Below are positions 21,467 to 38,326 of a DNA stretch of 64,000 nt, one piece after another (within the stretch, counting starts at the first letter, position 1; each line of letters opens with the position of its first letter). This stretch comes from Microbacterium sp. SY138 (GTDB lineage: Bacteria > Actinomycetota > Actinomycetes > Actinomycetales > Microbacteriaceae), in NCBI RefSeq assembly GCF_039729145.1, contig NZ_CP155793.1:3720001-3784000 (forward strand), given 5' to 3'. The translations under genes and the position numbers were made by a program. The notes under the pieces are model-generated. The model did no database searches and was not told where the DNA came from. It was given only the letters and a program-made list of their open reading frames with translations.

Positions 21467-21497
21467 GTGCCGCTCCTTCCGGGGGTATGGGAGAGAC

Positions 21498-21530
21498 AGG
21501 GGGCGCACTCGTCGGGTGAGCGCGCCCCCT
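21498..21530 (-). terminator. Attenuating hairpin between binding-protein and permease genes
   Basis: AGGGGGCGC (21498-21506) and GCGCCCCCT (21522-21530) form a 9-bp GC-rich stem. It lies 8 bases after the binding-protein stop (21539) and before the permease start at 21466. With no clear U-tract it probably acts as a partial terminator or 3' stabiliser, keeping the binding protein more abundant than the membrane parts. Confidence 0.6.
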
Positions 21531-21538
21531 GGTGCGGG

Positions 21539-23137: not shown

Positions 23138-23166
23138 GTGTGCTCCAGGGTGGTGGGGGGAACATC

Positions 23167-23220
23167 TTGAGGACATCTGATGTCTGATGTACTCTAAACA
23201 CAGGTTCGATCAGATCACAA
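23167..23220. promoter_or_regulatory. Divergent promoters and NanR operator of the sialic-acid locus
   Basis: GACATCTGATGTC at 23172-23184 is a palindrome around one central base, followed by a further TCTGATGT half-site (to 23190). On the plus strand TTGAGG (23167-23172) and TACTCT (23190-23195) frame the operator as -35 and -10 for the regulator gene. On the minus strand TTGTGA (23215-23220) and TAGAGT (23191-23196, 18-base spacer) place the operator at the transcription start of the transporter operon. The same motif occurs at the nanH promoter. Confidence 0.7.
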
Positions 23221-23266
23221 GAGTGAGATGATCGGAGCGTTTCTGCCAGGCACGAGAGGGAGCCCC

Positions 23267-23992
23267 ATGAAGTCCACCACGAGTAGGGCGTCACGCATGC
23301 GGCGCTCGACCACGGCGGATCAGATCAAGCAGCTCATCCTGACCCGGGGGCTCACGCCGGGCGACCCGCTGCCGACCGAGGCGGAGCTCTGCGAGGAGCT
23401 CGACGTCTCGCGATCCTCCGTGCGCGAGGCGATCCGCACGCTCTCGACCCTCGACATCGTCGATGTGCGTCACGGCCACGGCACGTATGTCGGACCGATG
23501 TCGCTGGACCCGATGGTGGAAGCCCTCGTGTTCCGCGGGGTGCTGTCGCCGGAGGGATCCCTGCAGGCGCTGCGGGAGGTCGTCGAAGTGCGCCTGGCGC
23601 TGGATCTGTCGATGGCCGAACGCGTGGTGGCCGCCGCTCAGGACGACCCCGACCCCGAGCTCGACGCCCTGGTGGCCGACATGGTCGCCAAGGCTGAGCG
23701 CGGGGAGCACTTCCTCGACGAGGACCGCGCGTTCCACACCCGCCTCTTCGGCGCGATCGGCAACCGCCTGGTCGGTCAGCTGGTCGGCGCCTTCTGGGAT
23801 GTGCACACGGCCGTGCTCCCCCAGCTGGGCATCCCTCAGCCCGACGACATCCACAAGACGGCGAAGGCGCACGGCGACATGCTCGACGCCGCACGTTCGG
23901 GTGATGTCGAACGCTATCGGCAGGCCGTCATCGAGCACTATCAGCCGCTGCAGCGTGTGCTCGCGAGCGCGGCGGAGGAATCCCAGGGCTGA
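23267..23992 (+). CDS. nanR: GntR/FCD-family repressor of the sialic-acid locus (NanR-like)
   Basis: 241 residues. The N-terminal winged helix (about 12-80) shows TADQIKQLILTRGLTPGDPLPTEAELCEELDVSRSSVREAIRTLSTLDIVDVRHGHGTYV; to stay short, the key part is the recognition helix SRSSVREAIRTL. The C-terminal FCD domain (about 100-225) has D/H metal-ligand candidates in FHTRLF and HGDMLDA. The start at 23267 follows GAGGGAG. It is divergent from the transporter-nan operon with a shared palindrome between, so it most likely represses both itself, that operon and nanH, with sialic acid or ManNAc(-6-P) as inducer. The name is by analogy, not by close sequence match. Confidence 0.8.
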   Translation: MKSTTSRASRMRRSTTADQIKQLILTRGLTPGDPLPTEAELCEELDVSRSSVREAIRTLSTLDIVDVRHGHGTYVGPMSLDPMVEALVFRGVLSPEGSLQALREVVEVRLALDLSMAERVVAAAQDDPDPELDALVADMVAKAERGEHFLDEDRAFHTRLFGAIGNRLVGQLVGAFWDVHTAVLPQLGIPQPDDIHKTAKAHGDMLDAARSGDVERYRQAVIEHYQPLQRVLASAAEESQG

Positions 23993-24087
23993 GGTCGCCG
24001 GCCGGATCCCTCCTCCGACTCGACAGCCGTGCCCCTCCGACTCGATAGAGTTGCCTCCGCACTGCACACCACGAGGGGGATCCGCCC

Positions 24088-25005
24088 ATGTCCGTTGGAC
24101 TTCTGGCCGTCGTCGACGACATCCTGAGCGCAGCGATGAAGGCGTCGGCCAAGGCGGCCGGCGTCGTGATCGACGACGCCGCGGTGACTCCGCAGTACGT
24201 GCAGGGCCTCACGCCCGCGAGGGAGCTGCCCGTCGTCGGCAAGATCGCCCTCGGGTCGCTGGCGAACAAGTTCGTGATCATCATCCCGGCGGCGCTGCTG
24301 CTGACCGCGTTCGCGCCGTGGGTGCTGCCGTATCTGCTGATCCTGGGCGGGGCGTACCTGTGCTTCGAGGGCGCCGAGAAGGTGCTCGAGTGGTTCGGCG
24401 TGCAGCACGGTCACGCCGACGAGGGAGCGCGCGATGAGAGGAAGCTCGTGCTCGGTGCGGTGCGCACCGACCTGATCCTCTCGACCGAGATCATGCTCAT
24501 CTCGCTCGCGAGCCTTGAGAAGGGGCTCGACATCTGGGCGACGCTGGCGATCCTCGCCGTGATCGCCCTCCTCATGACGGGTGTCGTCTACGGCGCTGTC
24601 GCACTGCTGGTGAAGATCGACGACATCGGTCTGAAGATGGCGAAGAACCCGGTGCAGCGTGTGCGGCACACCGGCACCAGGATCGTGCGCTCGATGCCCG
24701 GGGTGTTCCGCTTCATCAGCATCCTCGGCACGGTCGCCATGCTCTGGGTCGGCGGCCATCTCGTTCTGGTGAACCTCGGCGAGGTGGGGTGGCATTTCCC
24801 GGTCGACGTGCTGCACGCGGTGGAGCAGGCGCTCCATGGCCTCGGTCCGGTCGTGGTCTGGATCGTGGACACCATCATCTCCGCGATCGCCGGTCTCATC
24901 CTGGGGCTGCTCGTCGTCGGGATCGTGCTCGGCATCGCCCGCCTGTTCGGCAAGACCCCCAGCTTCCACGAGGGCGAGGCATCCCCCGCCGACGTGCACG
25001 TTTGA
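24088..25005 (+). CDS. DUF808 (YedI-like) inner-membrane protein
   Basis: 305 residues matching the DUF808 family closely (MSVGLLAVVDDILSAAMKAS, GVVIDDAAVTPQYVQGL, LPVVGKIALGSLANKF), with about six TM segments (near 65-105, 155-175, 210-235, 250-295). Function unknown in the family. GAGGGGG precedes the ATG by 7 bases. Upstream, CCTCCGACTCGA occurs twice, 22 bases apart (24012 and 24034), the second running into a possible -10 TAGAGT. It is transcribed with or after the nanR-like gene, but nothing links it to sialic acid. Confidence 0.9.
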   Translation: MSVGLLAVVDDILSAAMKASAKAAGVVIDDAAVTPQYVQGLTPARELPVVGKIALGSLANKFVIIIPAALLLTAFAPWVLPYLLILGGAYLCFEGAEKVLEWFGVQHGHADEGARDERKLVLGAVRTDLILSTEIMLISLASLEKGLDIWATLAILAVIALLMTGVVYGAVALLVKIDDIGLKMAKNPVQRVRHTGTRIVRSMPGVFRFISILGTVAMLWVGGHLVLVNLGEVGWHFPVDVLHAVEQALHGLGPVVVWIVDTIISAIAGLILGLLVVGIVLGIARLFGKTPSFHEGEASPADVHV

Positions 25006-25059
25006 ACATCGAGACACGACTGTCCGCACAGGCCAGAACACGAATCCACGCCGGCGCAC

Positions 25060-26409
25060 TCACGCCGCGATGTCGTACCGGGCTCGGCCGCCGAGCCTCG
25101 GCCTGCGCTCGGGGTCGACGTGCAGCGGCGGAATGAGCCACACCCGCGCCGCGAACCCCCGTCCCTCGATCCTGATCTCCCAGTCGTTGTCGTGGATGCG
25201 ATGATGGCAGCTCTCGCAGAGCAGCACTCCGTTGTCGAGATCGGTCGGTCCGGCATCCCGCTGCCACCAGCGCAGGTGATGCGCCCTGGCGAGTTGCGGG
25301 GGCAGCCCGCACATCACGCAACCGCCGTCGCGTTCTACGAGCGCGAGCCTCTGGGCGCGGGTGAACAGCCGCTTCTCACGCCCCCAGTCGAGGATCTCGC
25401 CCTCACCGCCGAGCACGACGGGGATGATGCCCCCACCCGCCGCCATCCGACGACATGAGGCGATGCTGACCGGCTCATCGAGGCCGTCGACCGTCGCGAA
25501 TCCGGTGCCGGCGGTCAGGTCGTCGAGCCCCACGCGGACGACGACGGTCGCACCGGATACCGGAAGCCCGCCGTTGTCGCATCCGCTCGCATGCGCGCAG
25601 ATCTCGACGAGCGCATCGGCCTGGATCATCGCGACCGTGTGACGGTCGGCATCGGGCGCTTCGGGGTCGAGCACGTGCGCCCGCGCGTGGAACGTGGCCG
25701 TCACGTACGCCTGGATCGCTGCCTTCACGGGAGCGCCGGACGCGGTGTCGGTCTGCAGCGTCAGATGCAGCGACCCGTCGCGCTCGAACATCGTCAGCGA
25801 GCGCCGCGACCGGGCCTCACCTTCTCGCGGAGCCACGCCGTCGGGGTCGAGCCAGGCCTCGGCGTGCACGACGAGCTTGCGCACGTCATCGAGCGACAGC
25901 CCTGCCGCACGTTCGACGAGCAGTCGCTCGGCATCGACGATCCGCTCGATCCCGACCTTCACGCGCGCCCGGTCGAGCAGGGCCACGATCAGCGCCGCGG
26001 CCGCCGCACTGAGCTCGCCGGCGCCGATCGCCCGCTGCACCTCGGGGTACCGCGGGGGCAGCTTCTCGCCGATGAGGTTCGCCCGCGGCGCGGTCGCCTC
26101 CCCCACCTTCACGAGCCGCACCGCATCGCCCGTCGATCCGCCGGTCGTGGCGGCGATCATGGTCGCCGAGTTGCGGAATCCCTGCTGCTTCGCGAGACCC
26201 GCAGACCCCAGTTCCGGACGCGATTCCCGCGCGATGCCCGCCGCGATCTCGGCATGGATGCCGTCGAGCCGACGCTGTACCAGTCCCATCGCCCGGTGCG
26301 CATCGAGCAGCTGCGCGCGGCTCAGATCGGCCGCGTTCGTCGCATCGCCCCACGCGTCTTCGAGGTACGTCATCGCCTCGAGGAGCGGGTTCAGATGCGG
26401 GTTCGCCAT
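25060..26409 (-). CDS. DUF222 / HNH endonuclease-domain protein (13E12 type)
   Basis: 449 residues. The N-terminal two thirds is DUF222 (helical; RAQLLDAHRAMGLVQRRLDGIHAEIA, VRLVKVGEATAPR); the C-terminus (about 365-415) is an HNH nuclease motif: CVMCGLPPQLARAHHLRWW followed by LDNGVLLCESCHHRIHDNDW, with four Cys for zinc and the HH/H catalytic set. Such proteins are abundant and often multicopy in actinobacteria, sometimes DNA-damage inducible; cellular role unsettled. A LexA-box-like site overlaps its promoter and TAAGAT lies 6 bases before the ATG (leaderless). Confidence 0.9.
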   Translation of the reverse strand: MANPHLNPLLEAMTYLEDAWGDATNAADLSRAQLLDAHRAMGLVQRRLDGIHAEIAAGIARESRPELGSAGLAKQQGFRNSATMIAATTGGSTGDAVRLVKVGEATAPRANLIGEKLPPRYPEVQRAIGAGELSAAAAALIVALLDRARVKVGIERIVDAERLLVERAAGLSLDDVRKLVVHAEAWLDPDGVAPREGEARSRRSLTMFERDGSLHLTLQTDTASGAPVKAAIQAYVTATFHARAHVLDPEAPDADRHTVAMIQADALVEICAHASGCDNGGLPVSGATVVVRVGLDDLTAGTGFATVDGLDEPVSIASCRRMAAGGGIIPVVLGGEGEILDWGREKRLFTRAQRLALVERDGGCVMCGLPPQLARAHHLRWWQRDAGPTDLDNGVLLCESCHHRIHDNDWEIRIEGRGFAARVWLIPPLHVDPERRPRLGGRARYDIAA

Positions 26410-26419
26410 ACCTCTATCT

Positions 26420-26435
26420 TAGAAGATATGTTCGA
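26420..26435 (-). promoter_or_regulatory. LexA (SOS) box-like site in the HNH gene promoter
   Basis: Read on the minus strand this is TCGAACATATCTTCTA; the actinobacterial SOS box is TCGAAC-N4-GTTCGA. The left half is perfect, the right half matches 4 of 6. It directly abuts the -10-like TAAGAT (26416-26421), where LexA binding would block initiation. Recognition by LexA is an inference. Confidence 0.5.
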
Positions 26436-26479
26436 ATTTCAGGAAAGCCTGTGGATAACTCCGCGCCTCGTCATTGCCG

Positions 26480-26493
26480 TAGTCTCATCGCCA
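26480..26493 (+). promoter_or_regulatory. -10 box of a leaderless promoter
   Basis: TAGTCT at 26480-26485 fits TANNNT and lies 7 bases before the ATG at 26493, which would be the transcription start. No clear -35 is visible. This decides the start of the downstream membrane protein. Confidence 0.5.
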
Positions 26494-27692
26494 TGTCCGC
26501 GTCCCCGAAGCTGCGCAGCACGAAGCGCGATGCCGACCGCTGGTTCCGTGAACAGGGCCTTCCGACGTTCGTTCCGCTGCGCCGCTGGTTCACCGACCTC
26601 CCCCGCCGTGTCGCGCCACTGATCGCGTGGGTCGCGGTGGCCGCGTACCTCTTCCAGGACGGGCTCGAGGTCGTCTTCGACTTCGCCCTCGACGACGACT
26701 CCACGGAGTGGGAGATCCTGCTCGTCCTCTTCGCCGTCGTGATCTTCCTGCTCGCGATCGGGCTCGCGTGGGCCGCCTACTACCTCGTGCGCACCCTGCT
26801 GCGTCGCCTCCCGGTGGGCATCGGCACCGCGGTCGCGCTCGTCCTGATCGCCTCGTGCCTCGCCTTCACGATCGTCTACGGCTACATCGCCCAGCCCGAC
26901 GCGACCGTCGGGCCGGTCCTGCGCACGATCCTGGTGCTCGGCCTCTGCATCCTGGTGACCGGCATGGGCGGAGGGGCCATGATCTCCTGGGCCTCGCGCC
27001 TCGCGGTGCGCAACGCCTCGGCGATAGGCCACATGGCGTCGATCGCCCTCCCGGTCATCCTCATGCTCGTCGTGTTCTCGTTCTTCTCGGCCGAGGTCTG
27101 GCAGATGGCATCCGCCCTCTCCTGGGGGTCTATCGCCCTGCTCGGCCTCGTCGTCGCGGTGCTCGCGGGGATCGTCGTGCTGCGGGTCAGCGCCTCCGAG
27201 ATCGACGATGACGCGCAGGCACCGAGCGCCGAACAGCGCGCCACCCTGCTCATCGGCACGCCCGCCGAAGGCCGCCCCGCCACCCCCGGCACTCCGGGAC
27301 GGCTGCGCGCACCGCAGCGCATCAACATCCTGCTCGCGATGACCGTGGCGCAGCTGGTGCAGGCCCTGTTCTTCGCCGGGCTCCTCGCGGCGCTGCTGAT
27401 CGTGATCGGAGGCATCGCCGTCCCCACGGGCGTCGTCGGCATCTGGCTCGGACCCGGCAGCACCGCACAGCCCCTCGCGGTGCAGCCGCTGGAGTTCTTC
27501 GGGGCGAAGCTGCCGCTCACCGTCAACCTGCTCAAGGCGGCCACCCTGCTCTCGGTGATCGCCGCCCTCCCCTTCGTGTTCTCCGCCGTGAGCGAGGCCC
27601 GCTACCGGGAGCGCTTCTTCGACCCGATCATGGCCGACATGCGGCGTGCGATCCTCGTGCGCGAAGCCGTCAGCACGACGACGGCAGGCTGA
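26493..27692 (+). CDS. Hypothetical integral membrane protein
   Basis: 399 residues starting MSASPKLRSTKRDADRWF, with a cytoplasmic basic N-terminus and about eight hydrophobic segments (around 40-60, 75-100, 110-130, 145-170, 185-205, 210-230, 285-310, 345-365). A 40-residue polar loop (about 235-280, Pro/Ala/Asp rich) divides it. I do not recognise a family. It is expressed from its own probable leaderless promoter, divergent from the HNH gene. Its 3' end marks the left border of the islet at 27.7-32.4 kb. Confidence 0.75.
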   Translation: MSASPKLRSTKRDADRWFREQGLPTFVPLRRWFTDLPRRVAPLIAWVAVAAYLFQDGLEVVFDFALDDDSTEWEILLVLFAVVIFLLAIGLAWAAYYLVRTLLRRLPVGIGTAVALVLIASCLAFTIVYGYIAQPDATVGPVLRTILVLGLCILVTGMGGGAMISWASRLAVRNASAIGHMASIALPVILMLVVFSFFSAEVWQMASALSWGSIALLGLVVAVLAGIVVLRVSASEIDDDAQAPSAEQRATLLIGTPAEGRPATPGTPGRLRAPQRINILLAMTVAQLVQALFFAGLLAALLIVIGGIAVPTGVVGIWLGPGSTAQPLAVQPLEFFGAKLPLTVNLLKAATLLSVIAALPFVFSAVSEARYRERFFDPIMADMRRAILVREAVSTTTAG

Positions 27693-27697
27693 GCTCT

Positions 27698-27722
27698 GTA
27701 ACTGTTCGGTCGCAGCACGCCC
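27698..27722 (+). repeat. Left 25-bp direct repeat flanking the MacB/I36 islet
   Basis: The unit is GTAACTGTTCGG, then T, then CGCAGCACGCCC. It recurs at 32441-32465 with one mismatch (C at position 13), 4,743 bases away in the same orientation. It lies 5 bases after the stop of the membrane protein. Interpreted as a duplicated target or attachment site; no integrase or transposase gene is present between the copies. Confidence 0.75.
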
Positions 27723-27743
27723 GGACGGCGTCCAGCGAGGATG

Positions 27744-29687
27744 TCAGCTGCGGAGGTTCTCCGCGGGGCGCAGACGCGCGGCGCGGATGGAGGCCAGTCC
27801 GCCTCCCCCGGCACCGACGATCAGGCCGACAGCGATGGCGATCGGAAGCAGCACGATGTCGAACACGGGGGCCCATCGTTGGCTCACGGTGACGACGAGG
27901 ATTGCCGCCATGCCGAGCACGAGACCTGCAGCCCCTCCGACGACACCGACGATTGCGGATTCGAGGGTGATGAGTTCCCCGATCTGTCGGTCTCGGGCTC
28001 CGAGCGCTTTGCGCATGCCGATCTCACCCCGGCGTGCGTTGACAGCGAGGAGCGTGGCGTTCATGAGTGCGGCGATCGCGACGATCAGCGCGAGCAGCGT
28101 GAACGCGGTGAGGGTGGCCTGCACCCCTTGTTCGACCTGCCCCCTCAGCTGTGCGGAATCGGTCGGCGCAACGACGACGATCCGCTCCGGCTCGAACGGG
28201 TTCAACGCCGAAGGCAATTGCTTGGCGACCTGCTGCGCTGCGCCGGAGGACGTCACGGCCAGCATCGTCACGTCTACGGCCCCCTTTGCTGTGAGGCCGT
28301 CGCGGGGTCCCACGACCACCTCGCCGCGGAGCAGGGGGAGGCGCGCGGACGTGGTGATGATGCCAGCGACGACATATGTGACGCCATCAACCGAGATCGT
28401 GGGAGCGCCATCAATGCTGCTGAGCCGCATGTCCTTCGCGAGAAGATCTCCGATGTAGGCCTCGCCGCCCGCTAGGGGTCCCGCATGCCACGGAGCCTCG
28501 TCGACCGTGAGACGCGCAGCACCGACGATATCTCCGATGGCGACGTGCGGCCGGATCTGGCGTGCCTCCGCGAACGTCGAGACCGTGCTGACGTTGAGAT
28601 CGATGACGACCGCAGCCGCATCCACTCCGCTGAGTCGCTCGATCGCCTGCGGAACCTCCTCGGGCGGAAGCGAGTTCTTGGCCCCCGTCGACCACGTCGC
28701 CGAGACCTCACGATTCAGGTGGGCATCGAATGTGGCGGATACCTGCGCTCGCGCCGATGCCGCAAGCCCGAGAGTGGTGATCGTCAATGCCACGGCGATG
28801 GCGACGGCGAGCCCCTGTCCGATCGATTGATACCTTCTCGACGTCACGGATGCCCAGGCGTCGCGAAGCATGTCGGCGAACCGGATGCGCCCGGTGAGCC
28901 GCACCCGCTCATCTTCTCTCGTGCGGGACGTGCGGGCATCATTCGAAGGAGAAGCCGGCGGCCCGTCCGCAGGGGCTTTCGATGCCGTACTCGCTCCGCT
29001 GCCGGACTGTCGCTCGTCGGACACGATCGCACCGTCGGCGATGTGGACCACACGACGCGCCCGTGCCGCGACCTCGGCCGAATGAGTGACGACGACGACC
29101 GTCGCCCCATCGCGATTGATACGTTCGAGCTCATCGAGAACCCGAGCGGCGTTGACCGAGTCGAGGTTGCCGGTCGGCTCGTCGGCGAGAATCAGCTTCG
29201 CATCCCCGGCGATCGCACGGGCGATGGCGATGCGTTGACGCTGCCCGCCCGACAGTGTCGAGGTGCTTTGGAAGGCGCGGTCTGCGAGGCCGACAGAGTC
29301 GATGGCGCCGAGAACGCTCTCACGCCGCTGCACACGGGGCACGCCCCGGTAGAGCAGGTTCAACTCGACACTGTCGACGGCCGGCCTGGCCTCGAGAAGG
29401 TGGAAGGCCTGGAACACGAATCCGATCTTCCGTGCGCGCACGCTCGCCGCGCGGCGACCGTCGCCGGCACGAGCTTCCTCGCCGTCGAGAACATAACTAC
29501 CCGCCGTCGGGTCGTCGAGAAGCCCCAGGATGTTCATCAGCGTCGTCTTGCCACCGCCCGATGGCCCGACGATCGCAACGAACTCCCCCTGGTCGATTTC
29601 CAGGTCGATGCCGCGAAGCGCATCGACCTCGGGCCGACCCGCCGAGGAGTACGTCCGACGCACTCCCCGCAACTGAATCAGCGACAC
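27744..29687 (-). CDS. MacB-type ABC exporter (ATPase fused to FtsX-like permease)
   Basis: 647 residues. ATPase at 1-230: Walker A GPSGGGKTT, signature LSGGQRQRIAIARAI, Walker B LILADEPTGNLD, His loop THSAE. A Ser/Ala linker (about 230-265) leads to TM1 (AVAIAVALTITTLGLA, about 290), a large extracytoplasmic domain (about 310-515) and three C-terminal TM segments with FtsX signatures (ARRGEIGMRKALGARDRQI). MacB proteins work by mechanotransmission, driving substrates outside the membrane together with a membrane-fusion protein, here encoded one base upstream. GTG start at 29687. Last gene of the four-gene islet. Substrate unknown; see neighbours. Confidence 0.9.
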   Translation of the reverse strand: MSLIQLRGVRRTYSSAGRPEVDALRGIDLEIDQGEFVAIVGPSGGGKTTLMNILGLLDDPTAGSYVLDGEEARAGDGRRAASVRARKIGFVFQAFHLLEARPAVDSVELNLLYRGVPRVQRRESVLGAIDSVGLADRAFQSTSTLSGGQRQRIAIARAIAGDAKLILADEPTGNLDSVNAARVLDELERINRDGATVVVVTHSAEVAARARRVVHIADGAIVSDERQSGSGASTASKAPADGPPASPSNDARTSRTREDERVRLTGRIRFADMLRDAWASVTSRRYQSIGQGLAVAIAVALTITTLGLAASARAQVSATFDAHLNREVSATWSTGAKNSLPPEEVPQAIERLSGVDAAAVVIDLNVSTVSTFAEARQIRPHVAIGDIVGAARLTVDEAPWHAGPLAGGEAYIGDLLAKDMRLSSIDGAPTISVDGVTYVVAGIITTSARLPLLRGEVVVGPRDGLTAKGAVDVTMLAVTSSGAAQQVAKQLPSALNPFEPERIVVVAPTDSAQLRGQVEQGVQATLTAFTLLALIVAIAALMNATLLAVNARRGEIGMRKALGARDRQIGELITLESAIVGVVGGAAGLVLGMAAILVVTVSQRWAPVFDIVLLPIAIAVGLIVGAGGGGLASIRAARLRPAENLRS

Positions 29688-29688
29688 G

Positions 29689-30927
29689 TCAACCGACTCG
29701 AACCAGTTCGCCGGCCTTCAGGGCACCTTCGTCGCGCGGCTCGACGGCTACCTCGCCCTGCAGTGTGCCCAGGACTGTGACCGGCACCTCGAGGAGCGTT
29801 CCGTCGGCCTGCTGCTTCGTCAGAACGTTCTTGTCAGGCCCCCGGTCCGACACGGCGAGAACCGGGACGATCAGCGCGTCCTCGGCCACGATCTGCTTGA
29901 TCACCGCCACCCGCGCCCGCCCCGACGACCCCGGCAGCGCTGTTTTCGGAACCACGGCGAAAGTGACCTCGGGTGCGGCCTGTTCCGCATCACCGTTCGA
30001 GCCCGATCCCTCTGAGTCTTCGGCCGAGTCAGAGGGGCGGATGTCTCCCACGATGCCCTCGACCTCAGTGCCACCGATCGAGATCACAGCCGCGTCTCCT
30101 GCGACCACATCCCCGAGATCGGTGACGGGAACCGTGATCGTGACCACCAGATCCGCCGACCCGAGGATGAAGTCCGGCACACCCTCCGCCGCCAAACGCT
30201 GCCCGACCTGAACACCTTTCACGACCTGCGCGGACGCAGAAGGCATCGCCAGAATTTCGGCGACAGGAACATACCCCTCGGCAGCCGGCGCCTTCTCGCT
30301 CGGATCCGCCGCCTTCTCGTCCCCCTCCGAGCTCGTCTTCTCCGCCGCGGAACTGCGAGTGGGGGCCTCATAGCCATTGTCCTGATACCAGCGCTTCACC
30401 GCCGCAGCCGTCTCGCCTCCGAACCGCCCATCGGCGTTGAGCTGGTACGACCGCGCCACGAGTGCAGCCTGCAATGCCTCGACATCCGGGCCACGATCCC
30501 CGACGCCCATGTCGCGGTAGAAGGAGAAGGCCGACTGCACACCGAAGAGAGGGCGCCCGTTGACCTCGGTGAGAACCTGCCCCGAAGAAGCGGTCGCACC
30601 CGTTGCCAGTGGGCGTCCGGTGACGACGGTGAGCGACGCTTCCGCGACAGGGAGCACCGTCACCGGAGTCTGCGTCGACGGCCCCGCCTGCCCGGTGAAG
30701 CCGACCTCGCCAGCCAGCGCCCCCTGCGTGACCTCTGCGAAGACCGGCCCGGGGGCGGGCGCCTTGGCGTTGGCCTCCTGCTGCGCCGACGACTGGAACT
30801 GCGCCGCAAACCAAAACCCGGCACCGATCAGCGCCACAATCAGCACCACAGCGATCACGACGATCCAGCGTGACCGTCTCGCCGTCTCCGGCACACCTAC
30901 TTCATCCATCGGACTCTCATCACTCAC
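29689..30927 (-). CDS. Membrane-fusion (adaptor) protein with peptidoglycan-binding domain
   Basis: 412 residues: N-terminal TM anchor (WIVVIAVVLIVALIGAGFWFA, about 21-41), a hairpin/lipoyl-like region, a PG_binding_1 module (DVEALQAALVARSYQLNADGRFGGETAAAVKRWY; key positions about 145-180), a charged Ser/Glu/Lys linker, then beta-rich MFP domains (VGQRLAAEGVPDFIL, VPKTALPGSSGRARVAV). In Gram-positive bacteria such proteins link a MacB-type exporter to the cell wall. GTG start at 30927, with the ATG at 30909 an alternative. Coupled to the MacB gene (1-base gap). Confidence 0.85.
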   Translation of the reverse strand: MSDESPMDEVGVPETARRSRWIVVIAVVLIVALIGAGFWFAAQFQSSAQQEANAKAPAPGPVFAEVTQGALAGEVGFTGQAGPSTQTPVTVLPVAEASLTVVTGRPLATGATASSGQVLTEVNGRPLFGVQSAFSFYRDMGVGDRGPDVEALQAALVARSYQLNADGRFGGETAAAVKRWYQDNGYEAPTRSSAAEKTSSEGDEKAADPSEKAPAAEGYVPVAEILAMPSASAQVVKGVQVGQRLAAEGVPDFILGSADLVVTITVPVTDLGDVVAGDAAVISIGGTEVEGIVGDIRPSDSAEDSEGSGSNGDAEQAAPEVTFAVVPKTALPGSSGRARVAVIKQIVAEDALIVPVLAVSDRGPDKNVLTKQQADGTLLEVPVTVLGTLQGEVAVEPRDEGALKAGELVRVG

Positions 30928-30973
30928 TGATCGGCCAGGACTCCTTGCCGAGCCCGCTCTCGCGACGCCTCTT

Positions 30974-31885
30974 CTAAGGCGCGGCTGGCGCGTTCTCCGC
31001 CACGATCGTCAGCAGCTTCTTCTTCCGTTCGATCGCGTCCGCACGGATCCGATCGAGCTTGTCCCTGTTCTCCGCGACGAGCTTCTCCTGCTCCTCCCAA
31101 TTCCGCTCATACCAGAGCGAGGCCCACCCACTCGACTCCTGGCACTCCGCATCAGCAACAGCCGCAGCAAGCTCCTCCGCCGAAGGCGCGGACGACGACC
31201 CGGTCACCGCACCCCACACCTCTGCCACCTCATAAGGAGCTCCTTCCCAAGGTTGCTCTTGAGTCACCGCGTAATCCACCCGTGGGGTCAGACACTCCCG
31301 CCAGGCTTTCACCGCCTTGACCACATCCGGATCCTGCTCCACGATGTCCCAAGCCTGGGCGGATAGCTCAGCGTTGTAGTTCAGCCCGTCGGCGGTGGAT
31401 GCGAAGTCCTTGTCTTTCGCGCGGATCTTGTCAGTGCAGGCCACGAGCGCGTCATCCAGTTCCTGATTCGGAAAGTACGAATCCACTGTCTCTGTGTATG
31501 TCAACCACAGCTCAGCGCTCTCCGGATCATCCAGCCGCGCGAAATGGTAACCCCACTTCTTTGCCAGTTCCAGATTGAACAGCCGCAGACCTACCCGGTT
31601 GAAGTCTTCCGCACGGGGGAAGTCGGTATCCTGCCACGGCACCGGCCACTCATACCCCTGCGCACCCAGACAATCCGAGATCAACAACTGCTCCGCATAG
31701 TTGTCCAGGTCCGGGGAATACACGACGAACTCATCAAGAGGCATCTTCCAAGCCGCTTGATTCCTCACCCCCGCATCCGCCTCACTGTCGGACGCGGTAC
31801 ACCCCACCAGACCCCCGGCAACCGTGACCGCAAGGACGGTCGCCATGACCAGGCGGCCACCTACGCGCGGAGAAGTCACCGGCAT
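30974..31885 (-). CDS. Cysteine-containing lipoprotein of unknown function (islet)
   Basis: 303 residues. Signal peptide with lipobox GLVGC (Cys about 29) indicates a lipid-anchored outer-face protein. Four further Cys occur in patterned settings (ISDCLGAQGYEWPV, LVACTDKI, WRECLTPRVDY, DAECQESSGW), suggesting two disulfides. The last 60 residues are charged and helical (YERNWEEQEKLVAENRDKLDRIR; coiled-coil-like). I do not recognise a characterised family. Its start overlaps the end of the I36-like gene by 10 bases, so the two are cotranslated; it could be a receptor, chaperone or immunity factor for the secreted partner. GC content is visibly lower than in neighbouring housekeeping genes. Confidence 0.75.
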   Translation of the reverse strand: MPVTSPRVGGRLVMATVLAVTVAGGLVGCTASDSEADAGVRNQAAWKMPLDEFVVYSPDLDNYAEQLLISDCLGAQGYEWPVPWQDTDFPRAEDFNRVGLRLFNLELAKKWGYHFARLDDPESAELWLTYTETVDSYFPNQELDDALVACTDKIRAKDKDFASTADGLNYNAELSAQAWDIVEQDPDVVKAVKAWRECLTPRVDYAVTQEQPWEGAPYEVAEVWGAVTGSSSAPSAEELAAAVADAECQESSGWASLWYERNWEEQEKLVAENRDKLDRIRADAIERKKKLLTIVAENAPAAP

Positions 31886-32325
31886 AGAGCCGAACCAACG
31901 CTACTGAGGGTGCCGCTGAAGTATCCCGACTCGATCTCGTCGTTGTAGCTACCCACATTGCCGAAGCCCTGCCCCCGGAGGATAAGGAGGCCCTTCCCTC
32001 CTGTCTGGTTCTGTCCTTTGTAGAGGTAGGAGTTCTGGGAGCGCCCGTTGTTGAAGGTGGAGGAGATGACGTCGCCGTAGGACCTCCAGCCGATGGCCAT
32101 GACATCCACGCAGTTCGCGAACTTGTGCGTGGATGGCTGCTGCCATGCGTCGTTGGTGTAGTTGTAACCCGAGTAACTGCACGTGTACCCGGATGGGCAA
32201 TCACTCGGCGCGGCTGCGGCAGGGCCCGCCAAGGCGAGAACTCCCACCCCGGACAGGACGAGTGCGATCAGCGCGCTGGCCGCTCTTGTGCGCCAGGTTG
32301 CGCGACGCGCGTGTTCCAAAGACAT
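31876..32325 (-). CDS. Secreted peptidase-inhibitor-I36-like protein (islet)
   Basis: 149 residues; start MSLEHARRATWR with GGAGG 6 bases before ATG. Residues 1 to about 40 are a signal peptide (ASALIALVLSGVGVLALAGPAAAA). The mature part of about 110 residues has four Cys (SDCPSGYTC, FANC, final ALC) and Tyr/Asn/Gly-rich beta strands (CSYSGYNYTNDAW, ISSTFNNG) like the crystallin-fold I36 family that includes the Streptomyces metalloproteinase inhibitor; resemblance is by pattern, not by alignment. Possible roles are protease inhibitor, toxin or wall-active protein. First gene of the islet operon, upstream of the lipoprotein, MFP and MacB genes. Confidence 0.7.
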   Translation of the reverse strand: MSLEHARRATWRTRAASALIALVLSGVGVLALAGPAAAAPSDCPSGYTCSYSGYNYTNDAWQQPSTHKFANCVDVMAIGWRSYGDVISSTFNNGRSQNSYLYKGQNQTGGKGLLILRGQGFGNVGSYNDEIESGYFSGTLSSVGSALCR

Positions 32326-32362
32326 GAGATCCTCCGATGCACCCGTCAACTAAAACAATACG

Positions 32363-32377
32363 TTCTACACAGTAGAA
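32363..32377. promoter_or_regulatory. 15-bp palindrome in the promoter region of the I36-like operon
   Basis: TTCTACACAGTAGAA is a perfect inverted repeat (TTCTAC/GTAGAA) with a 3-base centre, in an AT-rich stretch 38 bases upstream of the I36-like start. A possible -10 TATTGT lies next to it on the minus strand. It looks like an operator, but no regulator gene is present inside the islet. Confidence 0.5.
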
Positions 32378-32440
32378 ATGGTTCGTGTGCGCGTCTGTAG
32401 GCCGTTCGGGGGACAAGCGCGGTGCCCGCACGTCGCCCCC

Positions 32441-32465
32441 GTAACTGTTCGGCCGCAGCACGCCC
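32441..32465 (+). repeat. Right 25-bp direct repeat flanking the MacB/I36 islet
   Basis: GTAACTGTTCGG, then C, then CGCAGCACGCCC; identical to the copy at 27698-27722 except at position 13. It separates the low-GC islet from the GNAT gene leader. If the islet were removed by recombination between the repeats, the membrane-protein gene would directly precede the GNAT gene with one copy left. Confidence 0.75.
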
Positions 32466-32482
32466 AGCGCCCGTTCCTCCTG

Positions 32483-32545
32483 CTAGCGTCGGCGATGCGC
32501 ACCCGAAGCGCCGAAGAAGGATGCGCACCCGAAGCGCAGAAGAAG
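32483..32545 (+). repeat. GNAT leader: -10-like box and 26-bp tandem duplication
   Basis: A 26-base unit starting GATGCGCACCCGAAGCGC is present at 32494-32519 and again at 32520-32545 with a single mismatch. TAGCGT (32483-32488) lies 6 bases before the ATG of the first copy (32495), so leaderless translation could begin there in frame with the GNAT protein, 22 codons earlier than the annotated start. The ATG in the second copy is in a different frame because 26 is not a multiple of three. Confidence 0.65.
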
Positions 32546-32560
32546 AGAGAACGCCCGCCG

Positions 32561-33088
32561 ATGACAGCCGTGCGAATCAGGGACGCCGAGACCGCCGATC
32601 TCGAGACCATCACCGCGATCCACAACCATGCCGTGCTGCACACCACCGCGATCTGGAACGAAGAGGCGGTCGACCTCGCCGACCGCGTCGCCTGGCTCGC
32701 CGATCGCACCGCCCGCGGCTACCCGGTCATCGTCGCCGTCGACGACACGGGGGTGCTGGGCTACGCGTCGTACGCGCAATGGCGTCCGCACAGCGGCTAT
32801 CGCCACACGGTCGAGCACTCGGTCTACGTCCTCGACGGCCAGCACGGTCGCGGCATCGGCACCGACCTCATGTCGGCGCTCGTCGATCGTGCGCGGGACG
32901 CGGGGATGCACGTGATGATCGCCGGGATCGAAAGCGGGAACGCCGCCTCCATCGCCCTGCACGAGCGCCTGGGCTTCGTCGAGGTCGGACGCATGCCGCA
33001 GGTCGGTGCCAAGTTCGGACGCTGGCTCGATTTGAACATGCTGCAGCTGGTGCTCGACGACCGCCCCGAACCCGACGCCGGATCCTGA
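32561..33088 (+). CDS. GNAT-family N-acetyltransferase (phosphinothricin acetyltransferase-like)
   Basis: 175 residues from MTAVRIRDAETADLE. GNAT motifs: ITAIHNHAV and TAIWNEE (PAT/Bar-like N-terminus), VLGYASYAQWRPHSGYRHTVEHSVYV, acetyl-CoA loop QHGRGIGTDLMSALVD, and SIALHERLGFVEVGRMPQVGAKFGRW. The pattern is that of the phosphinothricin/methionine-sulfone acetyltransferase group, which acetylates amino-acid analogues; the real substrate here is unknown. A leaderless start at 32495 would add 22 residues. It is followed after 2 bases by the pnuC-like gene, so the two are coupled. Confidence 0.85.
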   Translation: MTAVRIRDAETADLETITAIHNHAVLHTTAIWNEEAVDLADRVAWLADRTARGYPVIVAVDDTGVLGYASYAQWRPHSGYRHTVEHSVYVLDGQHGRGIGTDLMSALVDRARDAGMHVMIAGIESGNAASIALHERLGFVEVGRMPQVGAKFGRWLDLNMLQLVLDDRPEPDAGS

Positions 33089-33090
33089 CG

Positions 33091-33804
33091 ATGAACCTGC
33101 TGCAGTGGTTCGTCGACGCCTTCAACTCGCAGTGGATGCTGCCCGGCGGGCAGACGCTCCTGGTGCGGGAGGTCGTGGGCAACGCGTTCGGTCTCGCCAG
33201 CGCGCTCGGCGGCATGCGACGCAAGGTGTGGGCATGGCCGGTCGGCATCATCGGCAACCTGCTGCTGCTCACCGTCTTCCTCGGCTCCGCCCTCAGCCCC
33301 GATCCGTCACTGCCGCACCTGCTCGGCCAGGCCGGGCGGCAGATCATGTTCATCGCGGTCGCCATCTACGGATGGGTGCGCTGGCGGAACCTCGACGGCG
33401 GACGCGTGGTCCCGCGCTGGGCGCCGACGAGCGCCCGCATCGGCATGGTGCTGGTGATGGTCGTCGGCACGGTCGCCCTGACCCCGCTGTTCCGCCTGCT
33501 GGGATCGTGGGAGCCGGTGTGGGCCGACGCCTGGACGTTCGTCGGCTCGCTGCTGGCCACCTACGGCATGGCGAAGGGCTGGACCGAGTTCTGGCTGGTC
33601 TGGATCGCTGTCGACGTCGTCGGGGTGCCGCTGCTGTTCAGCTCCGGCTACTACGCCACCGGCTTCATGTACGTCTTCTACGGCGTCTTCACCGCGATCG
33701 GCTTCGTGATCTGGTGGCGGGCGCAGCGCACCGCCGCGCATCCGATCGAGATCCTGCCGCCCGACCCGAGCCCGCGACGGCCGGAGGAGGAAGAGCTCGC
33801 CTGA
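33091..33804 (+). CDS. pnuC: PnuC-family nicotinamide riboside/mononucleotide transporter
   Basis: 237 residues with about seven TM segments. Family features: opening WFVDAFNSQWMLPGG, GNAFGLASALGGMRRKVWAWPVGIIGN, YGWVRWRN and the late WTEFWLVWIAVDVVGVPLLF. PnuC imports NAD precursors by facilitated diffusion, trapped by phosphorylation inside the cell. The C-terminal 20 residues are Pro/Glu rich. It sits 2 bases behind the GNAT gene; no NAD-salvage kinase is nearby, and the ATG has no clear ribosome site of its own, which points to translational coupling. Confidence 0.88.
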   Translation: MNLLQWFVDAFNSQWMLPGGQTLLVREVVGNAFGLASALGGMRRKVWAWPVGIIGNLLLLTVFLGSALSPDPSLPHLLGQAGRQIMFIAVAIYGWVRWRNLDGGRVVPRWAPTSARIGMVLVMVVGTVALTPLFRLLGSWEPVWADAWTFVGSLLATYGMAKGWTEFWLVWIAVDVVGVPLLFSSGYYATGFMYVFYGVFTAIGFVIWWRAQRTAAHPIEILPPDPSPRRPEEEELA

Positions 33805-33872
33805 GCTCCCCTCCCCCCGGACGCCCCCCCTCCGCCGCCTCGATGTCGCCCCTCCTCGACACGAGGCCGTCT

Positions 33873-35240
33873 TCAGTCCCGGCGCTTCGCCGTGCGCGTC
33901 GTCTTCGCTGTCAGCGCCATGGCGTCGGCTGCCCACGCTGTGAGTCGTTCGAGCGGGCCCTTGCCGACCGTGCGCGTCCAGATGAGCGCGCCGGCCATCA
34001 TGAGCAGTGAGAGCGCGATCCACGGCAGCACCGGGTTGGGCAGCCAGGTCGCCGCCCCCGCCAGGATGAGGATCGCCTGGACGACGTAGCCGGTGAGCGG
34101 AACCGCGCCGTAGGCCGCCAGCGGGAGAACGGCCCACCGCGCATAACGGGTCACCAGCAGGCACAGGCCGAGGACGGCCACCGCGAAGCCGCCGGATGCC
34201 AGCACCTCCAGCACGCCGCCGGAGTGGGCCGAGACGCTGATGACCGCTTCGAGCATCTTCGCGGGCGGGTCCTCCGAAGCCACGCGATCGATGTACGACT
34301 GCCCCTCTTCGATGCCGCCGCCGTCGTCCGTGAACAGCGAGGCCTTCTCCGGCGGGAAGCAGACGACGACGCCGTCACTGGTCTGGCACGCCAGTCCGGA
34401 GACGTCGACCTCGTCCCCGGGGATCATGCTGATCGAACCCGAACCCGAACCCGAACCGGACGTGGAGCTCGACGACGCGACTTCCTGCGGCGGCGACGTG
34501 AGGAGCGCACCCAGCGCGTAACCGCCGATCGCGATCAGTCCTCCGCAGACGAGCATGACGACTGCCGTCTTCACCCGGGTCAGGTCGAGGCGTCCGATCA
34601 CGAGACCAGCGCAGAGCAGCGCAGCCCAGACCGTGATCGGGTAGGTGCCGAACAGCACCAGCGACAGCCCCGGGCCGCCCAGATCCGGCGAGAGCGTGCC
34701 GATCAGGGCGAGCAGCGGCGGACCGAGGATGCCGAGTGCCGCCCCCGCGATCACCAGCACCCTGGTGCGCAGGTGCACCGTGAACGCCGCCAGGATGTAC
34801 AGCACGCCGTAGAGCGTGAGGATCACGGCGATTCCCGAGCCCAGCAGCTCGACCACGAGCCCGATCACGAAGATCGCCGCCCCGCGACCGACCAGGCGCA
34901 ACCGGATCTTCCGGAGCTCGTCCGGTGACGCGGTACGGGCACCGCCCGTCATCAGCGCGAGCGAGACCCCGGCCAGCAGGGCGAACAGGATCGAGGAGCG
35001 ACCGTTGACGATGTCCAGCCATGTCGACGGGTCGGTCAGGGTCAGGTCGGGACCGCTCGCGACCATCAGATGTGCGCCGAACATCCCCACCAGGGCGAGT
35101 CCGCGCGCGACGTCGACGCCGACGATGCGGCGCCTGCCCGTGGGGGCGCCTCCGCCGCGGCGCGGGCCGTCGCCGGAGTCGGCTGCGGAGGCGTCGGCCG
35201 TCGGCGCGGCGGAAGACGGGATGATGTGGGGCGTGCTCAC
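33873..35240 (-). CDS. DUF1624/DUF418-type multi-TM membrane protein
   Basis: 455 residues with about ten TM segments. After a 35-residue low-complexity N-terminus comes RRIVGVDVARGLALVGMFGAHL, the opening of heparan-alpha-glucosaminide acetyltransferase-like (DUF1624) proteins, with NGRSSILFALLAGVSLAL. Between TM halves lies an external loop with a Ser/Gly linker (encoded by a GAACCC-type hexamer run near 34435) and two Cys (LACQTSDGVVVC). The C-terminal part is DUF418-like. Probably an acyl-transfer membrane enzyme, substrate unknown. GTG start with GAGAGG 7 bases upstream. Confidence 0.8.
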   Translation of the reverse strand: MSTPHIIPSSAAPTADASAADSGDGPRRGGGAPTGRRRIVGVDVARGLALVGMFGAHLMVASGPDLTLTDPSTWLDIVNGRSSILFALLAGVSLALMTGGARTASPDELRKIRLRLVGRGAAIFVIGLVVELLGSGIAVILTLYGVLYILAAFTVHLRTRVLVIAGAALGILGPPLLALIGTLSPDLGGPGLSLVLFGTYPITVWAALLCAGLVIGRLDLTRVKTAVVMLVCGGLIAIGGYALGALLTSPPQEVASSSSTSGSGSGSGSISMIPGDEVDVSGLACQTSDGVVVCFPPEKASLFTDDGGGIEEGQSYIDRVASEDPPAKMLEAVISVSAHSGGVLEVLASGGFAVAVLGLCLLVTRYARWAVLPLAAYGAVPLTGYVVQAILILAGAATWLPNPVLPWIALSLLMMAGALIWTRTVGKGPLERLTAWAADAMALTAKTTRTAKRRD

Positions 35241-35371
35241 GTGGGGACCTCTCGAGGAATCGGCGGAGACCTCAAGCTCAGCACGCGCCTCCGAGGGCGC
35301 GCATCCACCCTCAGTACCGCTTCGATCCGTCGAGCGGATGAGCGTCGACGCCGCGCGCTTCCCGCCGGGCG

Positions 35372-36109
35372 TCAGTGCTGCACGCGCGCCAGGAACTCCG
35401 CCGTGGCCGCCTGCTGCGGGGCATCGAACACCTGGGTGGGCGGTCCCTGCTCGACGACGACACCGTGCTCGAGGAACACGATGCGGTCGGCGACCTCACG
35501 CGCGAACGACATCTCGTGGGTCGCCATCACGATCGTGGCGCCCTGCTGCTTCAGCTGTCGCACCAGATCGAGCACCTCGCCCACCAGCTGCGGGTCGAGG
35601 GCGCTGGTGATCTCGTCGAGCAGCAGCACCTCGGGCTGCGTGAGCACCGCGCGCACGATCGCCACGCGCTGCTGCTGTCCGCCGGAGAGCCGGTCGGGGT
35701 ACTCGTCGGCTTTGGCGCCGAGGCCGAGCGTGTCGAGCAACGCGCGTGCCTGGGCGCGCGCCTCCGTCTTGCGCATGCCGTGCACGCGCACGGCGGCGAG
35801 CGTGACGTTGTCGAGCACGGTCAGGTGCGGGAACAGGTTGAAGTGCTGGAACACGACCCCGATCCGGGCCCGCACCGCGTCGGCGTCCACCCGCGGGTCG
35901 GTGATGTCCTCGCCGGAGAGGAAGATCTGCCCGTCGTCGATGCCCTCGATGAGGTTCATGGTCTTGAGGAGGGTCGACTTGCCCGAGCCGGACGCGCCGA
36001 TCAGCACGACCACCTCGTGTGTGCCGACCGCGAGGTCGATGCCGCGCAGCACGTCATGATCGCCGAAGCGCTTGCGCACACCCCTGGCCTCGATCACGGG
36101 CACGTTCAT
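35372..36109 (-). CDS. Polar amino-acid-type ABC transporter ATPase
   Basis: 245 residues, GlnQ-like: Walker [10 protein letters not shown]-loop [17 protein letters not shown], signature [15 protein letters not shown], Walker [13 protein letters not shown] and His loop [19 protein letters not shown]. In Walker B the usual DEPTSALD reads DEITSALD (Pro to Ile), a change seen in some members. GGAGGAG precedes the ATG; the start overlaps the permease stop (ATGA). Energises import of the ligand bound by the lipoprotein at 36969-37820. Confidence 0.9.
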
Positions 36110-36972
36110 ACGACTCCTCCGGCTTGCTCGCGCTTGTTCAGACGCGCGGTGACGACATCGGTGAGGCGGATCATCGGCCAGCTGAGCACGATGAACATGA
36201 GGCCGGCGACGACGTACGGTGTGAAGTTGTAGGTCTCGGCGACCATCAGCTGTGCCGCACGGACCGCATCGACGGCGCCGAGCACCGAGATCAGCCCCAC
36301 GTCCTTCTGCATCGAGACGAAGTCGTTCATGAGGGCGGGGACGACCTTGCGCACGCCCTGCGGGATCACGACGATCCGGAGCGTCTGCCCGTGGGTCAGC
36401 CCGAGCGACCGCGCGGCGATGCGCTGCGAGGGATGCACGGCCTCCATGCCTGCACGGAGCACCTCGGCGACATAGGCGGAGTAGGTGAGGACCAGCGCGA
36501 TCGTGCCCCAGAACATCGGGGGCATGCGCGGGAAGATCATCAGCGCGGGGATGCCGAACCCCACGAGGTACAGCACGATCAGCAGCGGGATGCCACGGAA
36601 GAAGTCGGTGTAGGCCGCGGCGATCGCGCGCAGAGGGAAGAACACCGGGCCGCGCAGCGAGCGCATGGTGGCCAGGAGCGTGCCGAGGATCGCGACGCAC
36701 ACCACGGCGATGACGAGCACCAGGAGGTTGACGAGCAGTCCCTGGAAGATCGGACCGATGCTCTCCAGCGCGACCTGCGGATCGAAGAACGTCTGGCTGA
36801 CGATCGCCCAGCCGGGGGTGTTGACGACGACGACGACGAGCACCGCCAACAGGGCGATGCTGCTGCCGAACGCGATCAGGATGGATCGGGTGGTCGCCCG
36901 ACGCCGCAGAGCGCGGCGTGACAGCTCGAGTTCGCTCGGCTGCCACTCCGCGTCGACGGAGGTCGAGGTCAT
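36106..36972 (-). CDS. Polar amino-acid-type ABC transporter permease
   Basis: 288 residues with about six TM segments and the HisM/GlnP signature: FQGLLVNLLVLVIAVVCVAILGT, DFFRGIPLLIVLY, YSAYVAEVLRAGMEAVHPSQRIAARSLGLTHGQ (key part EVLRAGMEAV and ARSLGLT). Start at 36972 (MTSTSVDAEW) overlaps the binding-protein stop by ATGA. Only one permease gene is present, so the channel is probably a homodimer. Confidence 0.9.
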   Translation of the reverse strand: MTSTSVDAEWQPSELELSRRALRRRATTRSILIAFGSSIALLAVLVVVVVNTPGWAIVSQTFFDPQVALESIGPIFQGLLVNLLVLVIAVVCVAILGTLLATMRSLRGPVFFPLRAIAAAYTDFFRGIPLLIVLYLVGFGIPALMIFPRMPPMFWGTIALVLTYSAYVAEVLRAGMEAVHPSQRIAARSLGLTHGQTLRIVVIPQGVRKVVPALMNDFVSMQKDVGLISVLGAVDAVRAAQLMVAETYNFTPYVVAGLMFIVLSWPMIRLTDVVTARLNKREQAGGVV

Positions 36973-37820: not shown

Positions 37821-37897
37821 GATGACTCCAGGGCGAGAAAGGGTATGGAGAAGACGGCGAGGCAGGACGGGTCTGCCTCTGCAGACACGGTCTGCCT

Positions 37898-38326
37898 CTA
37901 CAGAGTAGGCGATGCGGCGAGTCGCCAATCGGCGAAGTCGAAACCTGGGGACACGAAGCACGACACCAGCACCTCGTCGGCGTCGAGCGGCCTCGCGGCC
38001 TGCCAGACACCGGCCGGCACACGCACCTGCGCCGCCTCTCCGGGGCCGAGCACGATCGCCGTCCCCTCGCCCGGTTCCGCACCGTCTCCGCCGAGGCGGA
38101 GTTCGAGTCGGCCCGGCCCGTGCCACAGCCACAGCTCGTCGCTGGTCACGACGTGCCATTCGCTCTTCTCCGATGGCAGGAGGAGGTAGTGGATGCAGGT
38201 GGCCGCCGGCCGCTGACCGTTCGGCGTCTCGACGGGAAGCGGGCTCGTCCAGGTGCGGCGGAACCAGCCGCCTTCCGGATGCGGGGCGAGGTCGAGCCGC
38301 TCGGCGGTGGTGGGGCGCTGTGTCAT
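37898..38326 (-). CDS. DUF985 cupin-domain protein
   Basis: 142 residues, single-domain DUF985 cupin: LDLAPHPEGGWFRRTWTSP, ATCIHYLLLPSEKSEWHVV, DELWLWHGPGRLEL, GVWQAARP and VSCFVSPGFDFADW. The family resembles sugar-epimerase-like cupins but its reaction is not established. It overlaps the amidohydrolase by ATGA and sits 77 bases before the transporter genes, so it belongs to the same unit. Confidence 0.88.
   Translation of the reverse strand: MTQRPTTAERLDLAPHPEGGWFRRTWTSPLPVETPNGQRPAATCIHYLLLPSEKSEWHVVTSDELWLWHGPGRLELRLGGDGAEPGEGTAIVLGPGEAAQVRVPAGVWQAARPLDADEVLVSCFVSPGFDFADWRLAASPTL

Follow-up and report, generated by a model that had tools for sequence, protein, structure and literature searches.

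The islet and its direct repeat

The stretch of DNA analysed here, which we refer to as the window, comprises 64,000 nucleotides of the 3,919,071 bp (3.92 Mb) genome of Microbacterium sp. SY138 (G000). It contains a small islet of four closely packed open reading frames (ORFs) that is bracketed by a 25-bp direct repeat. The repeat unit, GTAACTGTTCGG-T/C-CGCAGCACGCCC, is found in the same orientation on the plus strand at 27698-27722 (left copy) and at 32441-32465 (right copy), with one T/C difference between the two copies. All four ORFs of the islet are located on the minus strand, whilst the outer neighbours, a gene for a membrane protein on the left (26493-27692) and a GNAT acetyltransferase gene on the right (32561-33088; Pfam Acetyltransf_1, 1.9e-18), lie outside the insert on the plus strand.

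The first gene of the islet (31876-32325, minus strand) encodes a small secreted protein of the I36 / beta-gamma-crystallin type, whose start resembles a signal peptide (judged by eye) and which has a Pfam Inhibitor_I36 domain (1.9e-7 on the ORF 31876-32349; 31.3 bits, above the cut-off of 21.1). It overlaps by 10 nt the start of the next gene (30974-31885, minus strand), which encodes a lipoprotein with an invariant cysteine, C29, and which has no match in Pfam or NCBIfam. The third gene (29689-30927, minus strand) encodes an adaptor-like protein with a peptidoglycan-binding domain (Pfam PG_binding_1, 6.1e-7) that, judged by gene position, would have a HlyD/MacA-like role. The last (27744-29687, minus strand) encodes a MacB-like ATP-binding cassette (ABC) transporter, in which an ATPase is fused to an FtsX-type permease (Pfam ABC_tran, 8.6e-28; FtsX, 4.8e-16). 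Its match to Pfam MacB_PCD (1.1e-4) is below the cut-off of that model, as are those to its best NCBIfam models, MacB, DarD, and L_ocin_972_ABC. None of the four proteins matches an integrase or transposase domain (Pfam, E 0.001). The initial annotation of this DNA had pointed to the repeat, to its exact bracketing of four co-oriented genes between neighbours of opposite direction, and to the lack of an integrase or transposase, and our analysis agrees with it on each count.

Within the window, a search that allowed up to 3 mismatches returned only the two copies of the 25-mer, and matches were found in 0 of 100 shuffled windows. The same search of the entire SY138 genome again returned two copies, both bracketing the islet. 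When two 200-bp segments at a spacing of 4,743 bp were compared without gaps, the repeat scored 21, a value equalled by none of 300 random placements (maximum 14). A dispersed repeat, which further copies of the 25-mer would have indicated, was therefore rejected as the origin of the sequence, since the genome holds only two.

Occupied and empty sites in related genomes

We searched 295 genomes of the genus for the 25-mer, with 3 mismatches allowed, and found it in seven. SY138 and M. oxydans NBRC 15586 (G040) have two copies, G253, G252, and G077 have a single copy, again between the membrane and GNAT genes, and the matches of G036 and G111 lie in unrelated surroundings. The left neighbour was searched for in 366 genomes of the genus, 34 of which were positive at E 1e-100, and the gap between the membrane and GNAT genes was read in 27 of these, including SY138 itself. 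Three of the 27 sites contain the islet and two copies of the repeat. They belong to SY138, to M. maritypicum MF109 (G328), which is of the same species as SY138 and 98.8% identical to it across 12 kb at the islet region, and to M. oxydans, where the exact repeat is 29 bp and a gapped similarity extends across 51 columns at 86%. At seven sites (G253, G252, G077, G002, G186, G197, and G310) there is no islet, and a single exact copy of the 12-bp core of the repeat, GTAACTGTTCGG (window 27698-27709), lies between the membrane and GNAT genes, which is the empty site that the initial annotation had predicted. Another 11 sites (G149, G127, G066, G116, G228, G250, G005, G196, G014, G160, and G349) have neither the islet nor an exact core, and six have other DNA in the gap. 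The single-copy empty sites, together with the presence of just two 25-mers in the SY138 genome, show that an accessory cassette was inserted between the membrane and GNAT genes, and that at least 25-29 bp of the target was copied in the process.

The 12-bp core was exact in the seven relatives, the bases around it being variable, and in one of the 11 genomes without an exact core (G127) a diverged version seems recognizable by eye. The core may serve as a binding site ahead of the GNAT gene. The GNAT start is also preceded, at 32494-32545, by two tandem 26-bp repeats (GATGCGCACCCGAAGCG...); by eye, close relatives have variants of these and distant ones a single unit. As for the six gaps with other DNA, that of G083 contains genes for a PemK/MazF-like toxin and a MazE-like antitoxin (a similar pair is seen by eye in G143), that of G166 a beta-lactamase-family gene (with similar ORFs by eye in G143 and G108), and those of G319 and G329 about 1.1-1.3 kb of DNA. 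The membrane-GNAT gap thus looks like an insertion hot spot, and the position appears to be a permissive one. A decayed remnant of the cassette, corresponding to adaptor residues 24-53 and lipoprotein residues 267-303, is present just before the membrane gene in G186 and G310. In the window, a DUF222/HNH endonuclease gene (25060-26409) adjoins the left neighbour; it was not found in the stretches fetched from these two genomes.

The duplicated target was probably longer than the repeat seen today. The 24 bp immediately inside the right copy (32417-32440, plus strand, in the window) were compared with the 24 bp that precede the lone copy at empty sites and with the islets' own left edges, in 18 upstream comparisons with 1000 shuffles each. 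The right inner edge of the M. oxydans islet resembles the G077 empty site with a score of 16 (0/1000 shuffles as good) and its own left edge with a score of 10 (1/1000), and the edge in the window resembles G077 with a score of 11 (1/1000). The best of the other 15 comparisons reached 28/1000, and on the other side of the repeat none of 18 comparisons stood out. The original duplication was probably about 49 bp and extended into the 3′ end of the membrane gene, the further 24 bp having decayed to leave 25-29 bp.

The same edges bear on whether the islets of SY138 and M. oxydans descend from one event or several. In both genomes, the further 24 bp are closer to G077 than to the genome's own left edge. 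The flank tree places M. oxydans with G253 (support 1.0) and SY138, weakly, with G077 (0.72), and both partners are empty. Divergence between the two islet-bearing genomes is about 9% in the exporter genes and 8-14% in the neighbouring host genes. The shared decayed edge and this level of divergence fit either a single old insertion that was afterwards lost in some lineages or movement of the islet from lineage to lineage by way of its flanks. At position 20 of the repeat, both copies in SY138 have A, whereas both copies in M. oxydans and the single copy of its empty sister G253 have G; this agreement of the two copies within each lineage is consistent with separate events or with conversion of one copy by the other. 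A single insertion in a common ancestor, followed in several lineages by deletions between the repeats, which would make the present distribution largely one of loss, would account for the decayed extension that both right inner edges have in common, for the similar divergence of exporter and host genes, and for sister lineages that both lack the islet and have one copy. Segments with short direct repeats and empty alleles also form a known class, at least in the available text of one report (PMC2884548). Such a history requires losses in several lineages and a parallel change at position 20, and transfer of the islet between lineages would look alike. We give the single insertion about an even chance; it is compatible with the capture mechanism described below, and we lean towards it while regarding the question as undecided.

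Part of the islet has a more recent history. Between the window and M. oxydans, there are 303 differences in 3,273 positions across 27701-30974 and 68 in 723 across 32377-33100, as compared with only 9 in 1,273 in the intervening tract, 30975-32376, which comprises the lipoprotein gene and the secreted-protein gene, the latter with its upstream region. The inner pair is therefore 99.3% identical between the two genomes, whilst the rest differs by 9%. In the same tract, the window and MF109 differ at 14 of 1,402 positions, so that two species are as alike here as two genomes of one species. The M. oxydans secreted protein has 43 codons deleted in frame, and the same deletion occurs in a 106-residue database entry with 10 member sequences. 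The sequence pattern is that of a lipoprotein/secreted-protein pair that has recently passed between species through homologous recombination within the islet, with the exporter kept. The pair appears to be transferred independently of the exporter, which is what one would expect of an effector with its partner.

Homologous recombination might also have brought the whole cassette to its present sites, if a molecule with the cassette and one flanking copy had recombined with the single resident copy to give two repeats. The duplication would then date from a time when the cassette occupied this site in a different lineage. Exchange by homologous recombination is evident within the islet, the right inner edges are nearer to G077 than to their own left edges, and the T/C difference is reversed between the two species (T left and C right in SY138, C left and T right in M. 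oxydans), all of which such a route would accommodate. Nevertheless, 25-49 bp is short for RecA pairing, and both the first insertion and the case of Microbacterium sp. SZ1, described in the next section, would be left unexplained. We therefore consider spread of this kind unlikely.

Related cassettes and the route of insertion

Matches to the lipoprotein were found in 34 of 295 genomes of the genus, including SY138. In 11 further genomes (loci L065-L075), lipoprotein, adaptor, and ABC genes occur in the same order away from the membrane-GNAT site, and the secreted protein was detected in 9 of the 11; a twelfth locus (L076) is cut by a contig end. Neither the membrane nor the GNAT neighbour was found in any of the 11 fetched stretches. 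A protein search with the lipoprotein gave 75 relatives, and the organisms among those shown were Microbacterium and one Terrimesophilobacter; one distant relative came from an Actinomycetales metagenome bin. No match was found in 72,556 plasmid and 50,697 phage records, so that, as far as the lipoprotein is concerned, the idea of plasmid or phage cargo is not supported.

We scanned 2.8 kb of each flank of 13 cassettes for repeats, with 60 random pairs in the window as a control (maximum 35.6 bits). Five cassettes exceeded the control: the window (41.9 bits), M. oxydans (61.7 bits), Microbacterium sp. SZ1 (G292; 171 bits), G100 (100 bits), and G002 (46.4 bits). The 107-bp imperfect repeat of G100 was rejected as a target duplication because it is one member of a dispersed family that matches the G100 genome at many other places; copies of about 80-100 bp are numerous and partly clustered (e.g., C8:86980-88592). 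The 30-bp repeat of G002 (L066) is a candidate only. Its copies, at 3394-3423 and 9248-9277, are identical at 28 of 30 positions and bracket the cassette plus about 1 kb upstream, with transposase genes at 2141-2917 and 9789-10658, outside the repeat. Target duplications were thus recognized in SY138 and M. oxydans, at the same site, and in SZ1.

Empty sites of the other cassette loci were sought for two of them, SZ1 and G100. The SZ1 repeat (L067, L078) is 97 bp long with one difference and corresponds to the 3′ end of the upstream gene, a member of the beta-lactamase family. This gene has 24 other matching loci, of which 21 were compared. In four (L090, L093, L094, and L095), a single copy leads without interruption, or almost without, into the gene that lies downstream of the SZ1 cassette; in one (L092), about 220 bp intervene; and 16 match the gene end only. 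Both SZ1 copies have bases in common that are absent from four aligned relatives. As at position 20 in SY138 and M. oxydans, lineage bases are therefore common to both copies, which is what is expected if both come from the host's own target. Since the 97-bp repeat is host-type and has single-copy relatives, it represents a second, unrelated target that was duplicated at a different length.

These results bear on the suggestion of the initial annotation that the cassette was inserted by recombination at a fixed site, with the target duplicated. Insertion and duplication stand, but the fixed site does not: related cassettes are located elsewhere, one of them within an unrelated 97-bp duplication, and the membrane-GNAT gap holds unrelated genes in other species, so that we see no sign of a fixed attachment site. 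Had the repeats been the halves of an attachment site, a recombinase encoded elsewhere could have carried the cassette from one such site to another in circular form. Core lengths like that of the 25-bp repeat are usual for attachment sites, the empty site is precise, and orientation and position are the same in two species. However, the 25-bp and 97-bp sequences are unrelated, when related elements should have an attachment sequence in common, and the differing targets disfavour any site-specific recombinase. Moreover, the 25-mer is found nowhere else in the genome, there is no tRNA gene in window positions 20000-40000, no recombinase domain is encoded in the islet, and 8 of the 13 cassettes lack repeats above the control. 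Movement between attachment sites is accordingly very improbable in our view.

A transposase acting in trans is another conceivable agent, with the cassette as its passenger. Elements that make long duplications of variable length are known, namely IS1549/IS1634 (8-514 bp) and the IS1202 group (16-28 bp), and one of them is from Mycobacterium smegmatis, according to the available portions of two reports (PMC2266710, PMC10132070). The lengths observed here, 25-29 bp (about 49 bp with the decayed part) and 97 bp, are likewise not fixed, as would be allowed for IS1634-type elements, and the G002 cassette sits between two transposase genes. Against such an agent, no terminal inverted repeats beyond those of random controls were found, in any register, in SY138, M. 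oxydans, or SZ1. The best joint match between the ends of the SY138 and SZ1 cassettes was 18 of 28 letters, a figure that has no control behind it. Given the lack of terminal inverted repeats, we regard transposition in trans as decidedly unlikely.

The explanation that we favour, and consider reasonably probable as a whole, is that an accessory operon entered the membrane-GNAT gap illegitimately, a piece of the host target being copied to its far end in the process. A linear fragment would have been captured at a staggered break, and its junctions completed by filling in the single-stranded ends and joining them, presumably through Ku/LigD-type repair. Fill-in and joining of this kind could give host-type direct repeats of any length. 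The repeats would in turn let the cassette drop out precisely, leaving one copy, and the secreted-protein/lipoprotein pair would have been swapped between species by homologous recombination within the islet. Support for the idea comes from the repair genes themselves. Ku is encoded in all five genomes inspected (SY138, M. oxydans, G253, G077, and SZ1), as compared with 1 of 14 named control genomes, and each of the five has two copies of a LigD-type primase-polymerase, one of them adjoining Ku. There is also precedent in Streptomyces, where five inserts, between 30 bp and 18.8 kb long and drawn from the same genome, accompanied break repair, and where the authors postulate that end joining may foster horizontal transfer (PMC5869714). 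As to loss, the available text of a study of repeat-flanked variable segments in three species, which describes such segments as common, with repeats of at least 5 bp at 10-18% of them, proposes deletion by short-homology illegitimate recombination (PMC2884548), and by analogy precise loss of the islet would follow the same course.

Several observations weigh against capture by end joining. Eight of the 13 cassettes have no flanking repeat above the control maximum, scoring at most 31.0 bits; the LigD phosphoesterase model matched none of the five genomes; and if SY138 and M. oxydans inherited one insertion, as their shared edge suggests, one of the two lineages must have undergone the same change at position 20 in both of its copies. 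The wider proposition can be put forward only tentatively, and we think it rather doubtful. It holds that these cassettes are natural footprints of end-joining capture, whereby entire operons would be acquired by actinobacteria with Ku/LigD at staggered breaks, whose filled-in overhangs would persist as host-type repeats of ~25-100 bp, yielding a precisely reversible allele in which the inner pair is swapped and the exporter kept.

Cargo of the cassette and comparison with known systems

The right part of the islet has a G+C content of 58-63%, as against 66-69%, in agreement with the contrast described in the initial annotation. The lipoprotein gene is lower in G+C than both exporter genes in 13 of 13 cassettes, and so is the secreted-protein gene in all 11 cassettes where it was detected. 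As the contrast recurs in this way, it is a property of the cassette family and not the mark of a foreign half, and a composite islet was rejected. Two further features are located near the right end. A perfect palindrome, TTCTAC-N3-GTAGAA (32363-32377), precedes the secreted-protein gene and is a possible operator; among the 13 cassettes, it is exact in the window only. A motif at 32392-32415 (minus strand), TGTCCCCC-N3-CGGCCTA-N-AGACG, is also present in the G002 cassette, whose upstream region has it in both orientations by eye. In the form TGTCCCC-Y-N3-CGGCCTACAGACG, this 24-bp motif occurs three times in the SY138 genome. The other two copies (C1:2918897-2918920 and C1:3609533-3609556), with one mismatch each, lie shortly before genes for cell-wall peptidases, a VanY-type carboxypeptidase and an M23 peptidase, and the motif is possibly the promoter motif of a cell-wall regulon. 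Searches for known RNA families and for sigma-70-like promoters returned none. Beyond the islet, the GNAT gene is followed by a pnuC-like gene (33091-33804) with an NMN_transporter match.

By analogy with lactococcin 972-type loci, we infer that the envelope or other cells are the target of the secreted protein, and that the lipoprotein and the ABC machine would serve in protection or export. The models of the inner pair count against this assignment: that of the lipoprotein is confident and all-helical, but a fold search gave no structural match, and that of the secreted protein is poor, with a predicted local distance difference test (pLDDT) score of 58.9. The best structural matches of the latter were beta-gamma-crystallins, none below E 0.05, and its profile match to spherulin 3A is weak (E 0.09). 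Inhibitor_I36 is its only Pfam domain at E 0.001, and no lactococcin 972 domain was found at that threshold. A literature search combining Microbacterium with "peptidase inhibitor family I36" found nothing. Three of the four islet proteins matched no anti-phage model, and the ABC protein matched only models that contain an ATPase, the best, mad3 (7.7e-33), matching the ATPase portion of the protein.

It is mostly unexplained how genes reach new chromosomal locations when they have no mobility genes of their own. The two related cassettes described here, whose host-derived duplications differ in length and whose hosts have end-joining enzymes, provide a concrete and testable case. The cassette, which includes a lipoprotein of an unnamed family and an effector-like pair exchanged not long ago, is in addition a candidate competition or envelope system in Microbacterium.

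In its cargo, the islet resembles MacAB/FtsEX/Lol-type machines and lactococcin 972-type loci, in that an ATPase and an FtsX-like permease are accompanied by an adaptor, a small exported beta-rich protein is encoded first in the operon, and TIGR03608 is among the best models. It differs from MacAB and lactococcin 972-type loci in that all 25 NCBIfam scores shown are below cut-off, in the additional peptidoglycan-binding adaptor and lipoprotein family, and in a secreted protein that is I36/crystallin-like. With the IS1549, IS1634, and IS1202 group, as far as the available accounts describe it, the islet has in common duplications of tens of bases and variable length, but it encodes no transposase, and neither terminal inverted repeats nor fixed ends were found. 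The end-joining insertions of Streptomyces (PMC5869714) likewise occurred in an actinobacterium with Ku, where 30 bp to 18.8 kb was joined at breaks. There, however, the inserts came from the same genome, the breaks were enzyme-made, and target duplications of such length are not seen in the available text of that report. The closest likeness is to the small repeat-flanked variable segments of PMC2884548. In both cases, going by the accessible part of that study, an accessory segment without a mobility gene lies between backbone genes, is flanked by a short direct repeat, and has empty alleles. The repeats are mainly discussed there as a cause of deletion, whereas the host-type duplication of the islet and the 97-bp case point to formation at insertion, and our comparison was made between species, not strains. 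The islet belongs to this known class; less usual are the differing lengths of duplication for related cassettes and the exchange of the inner pair.

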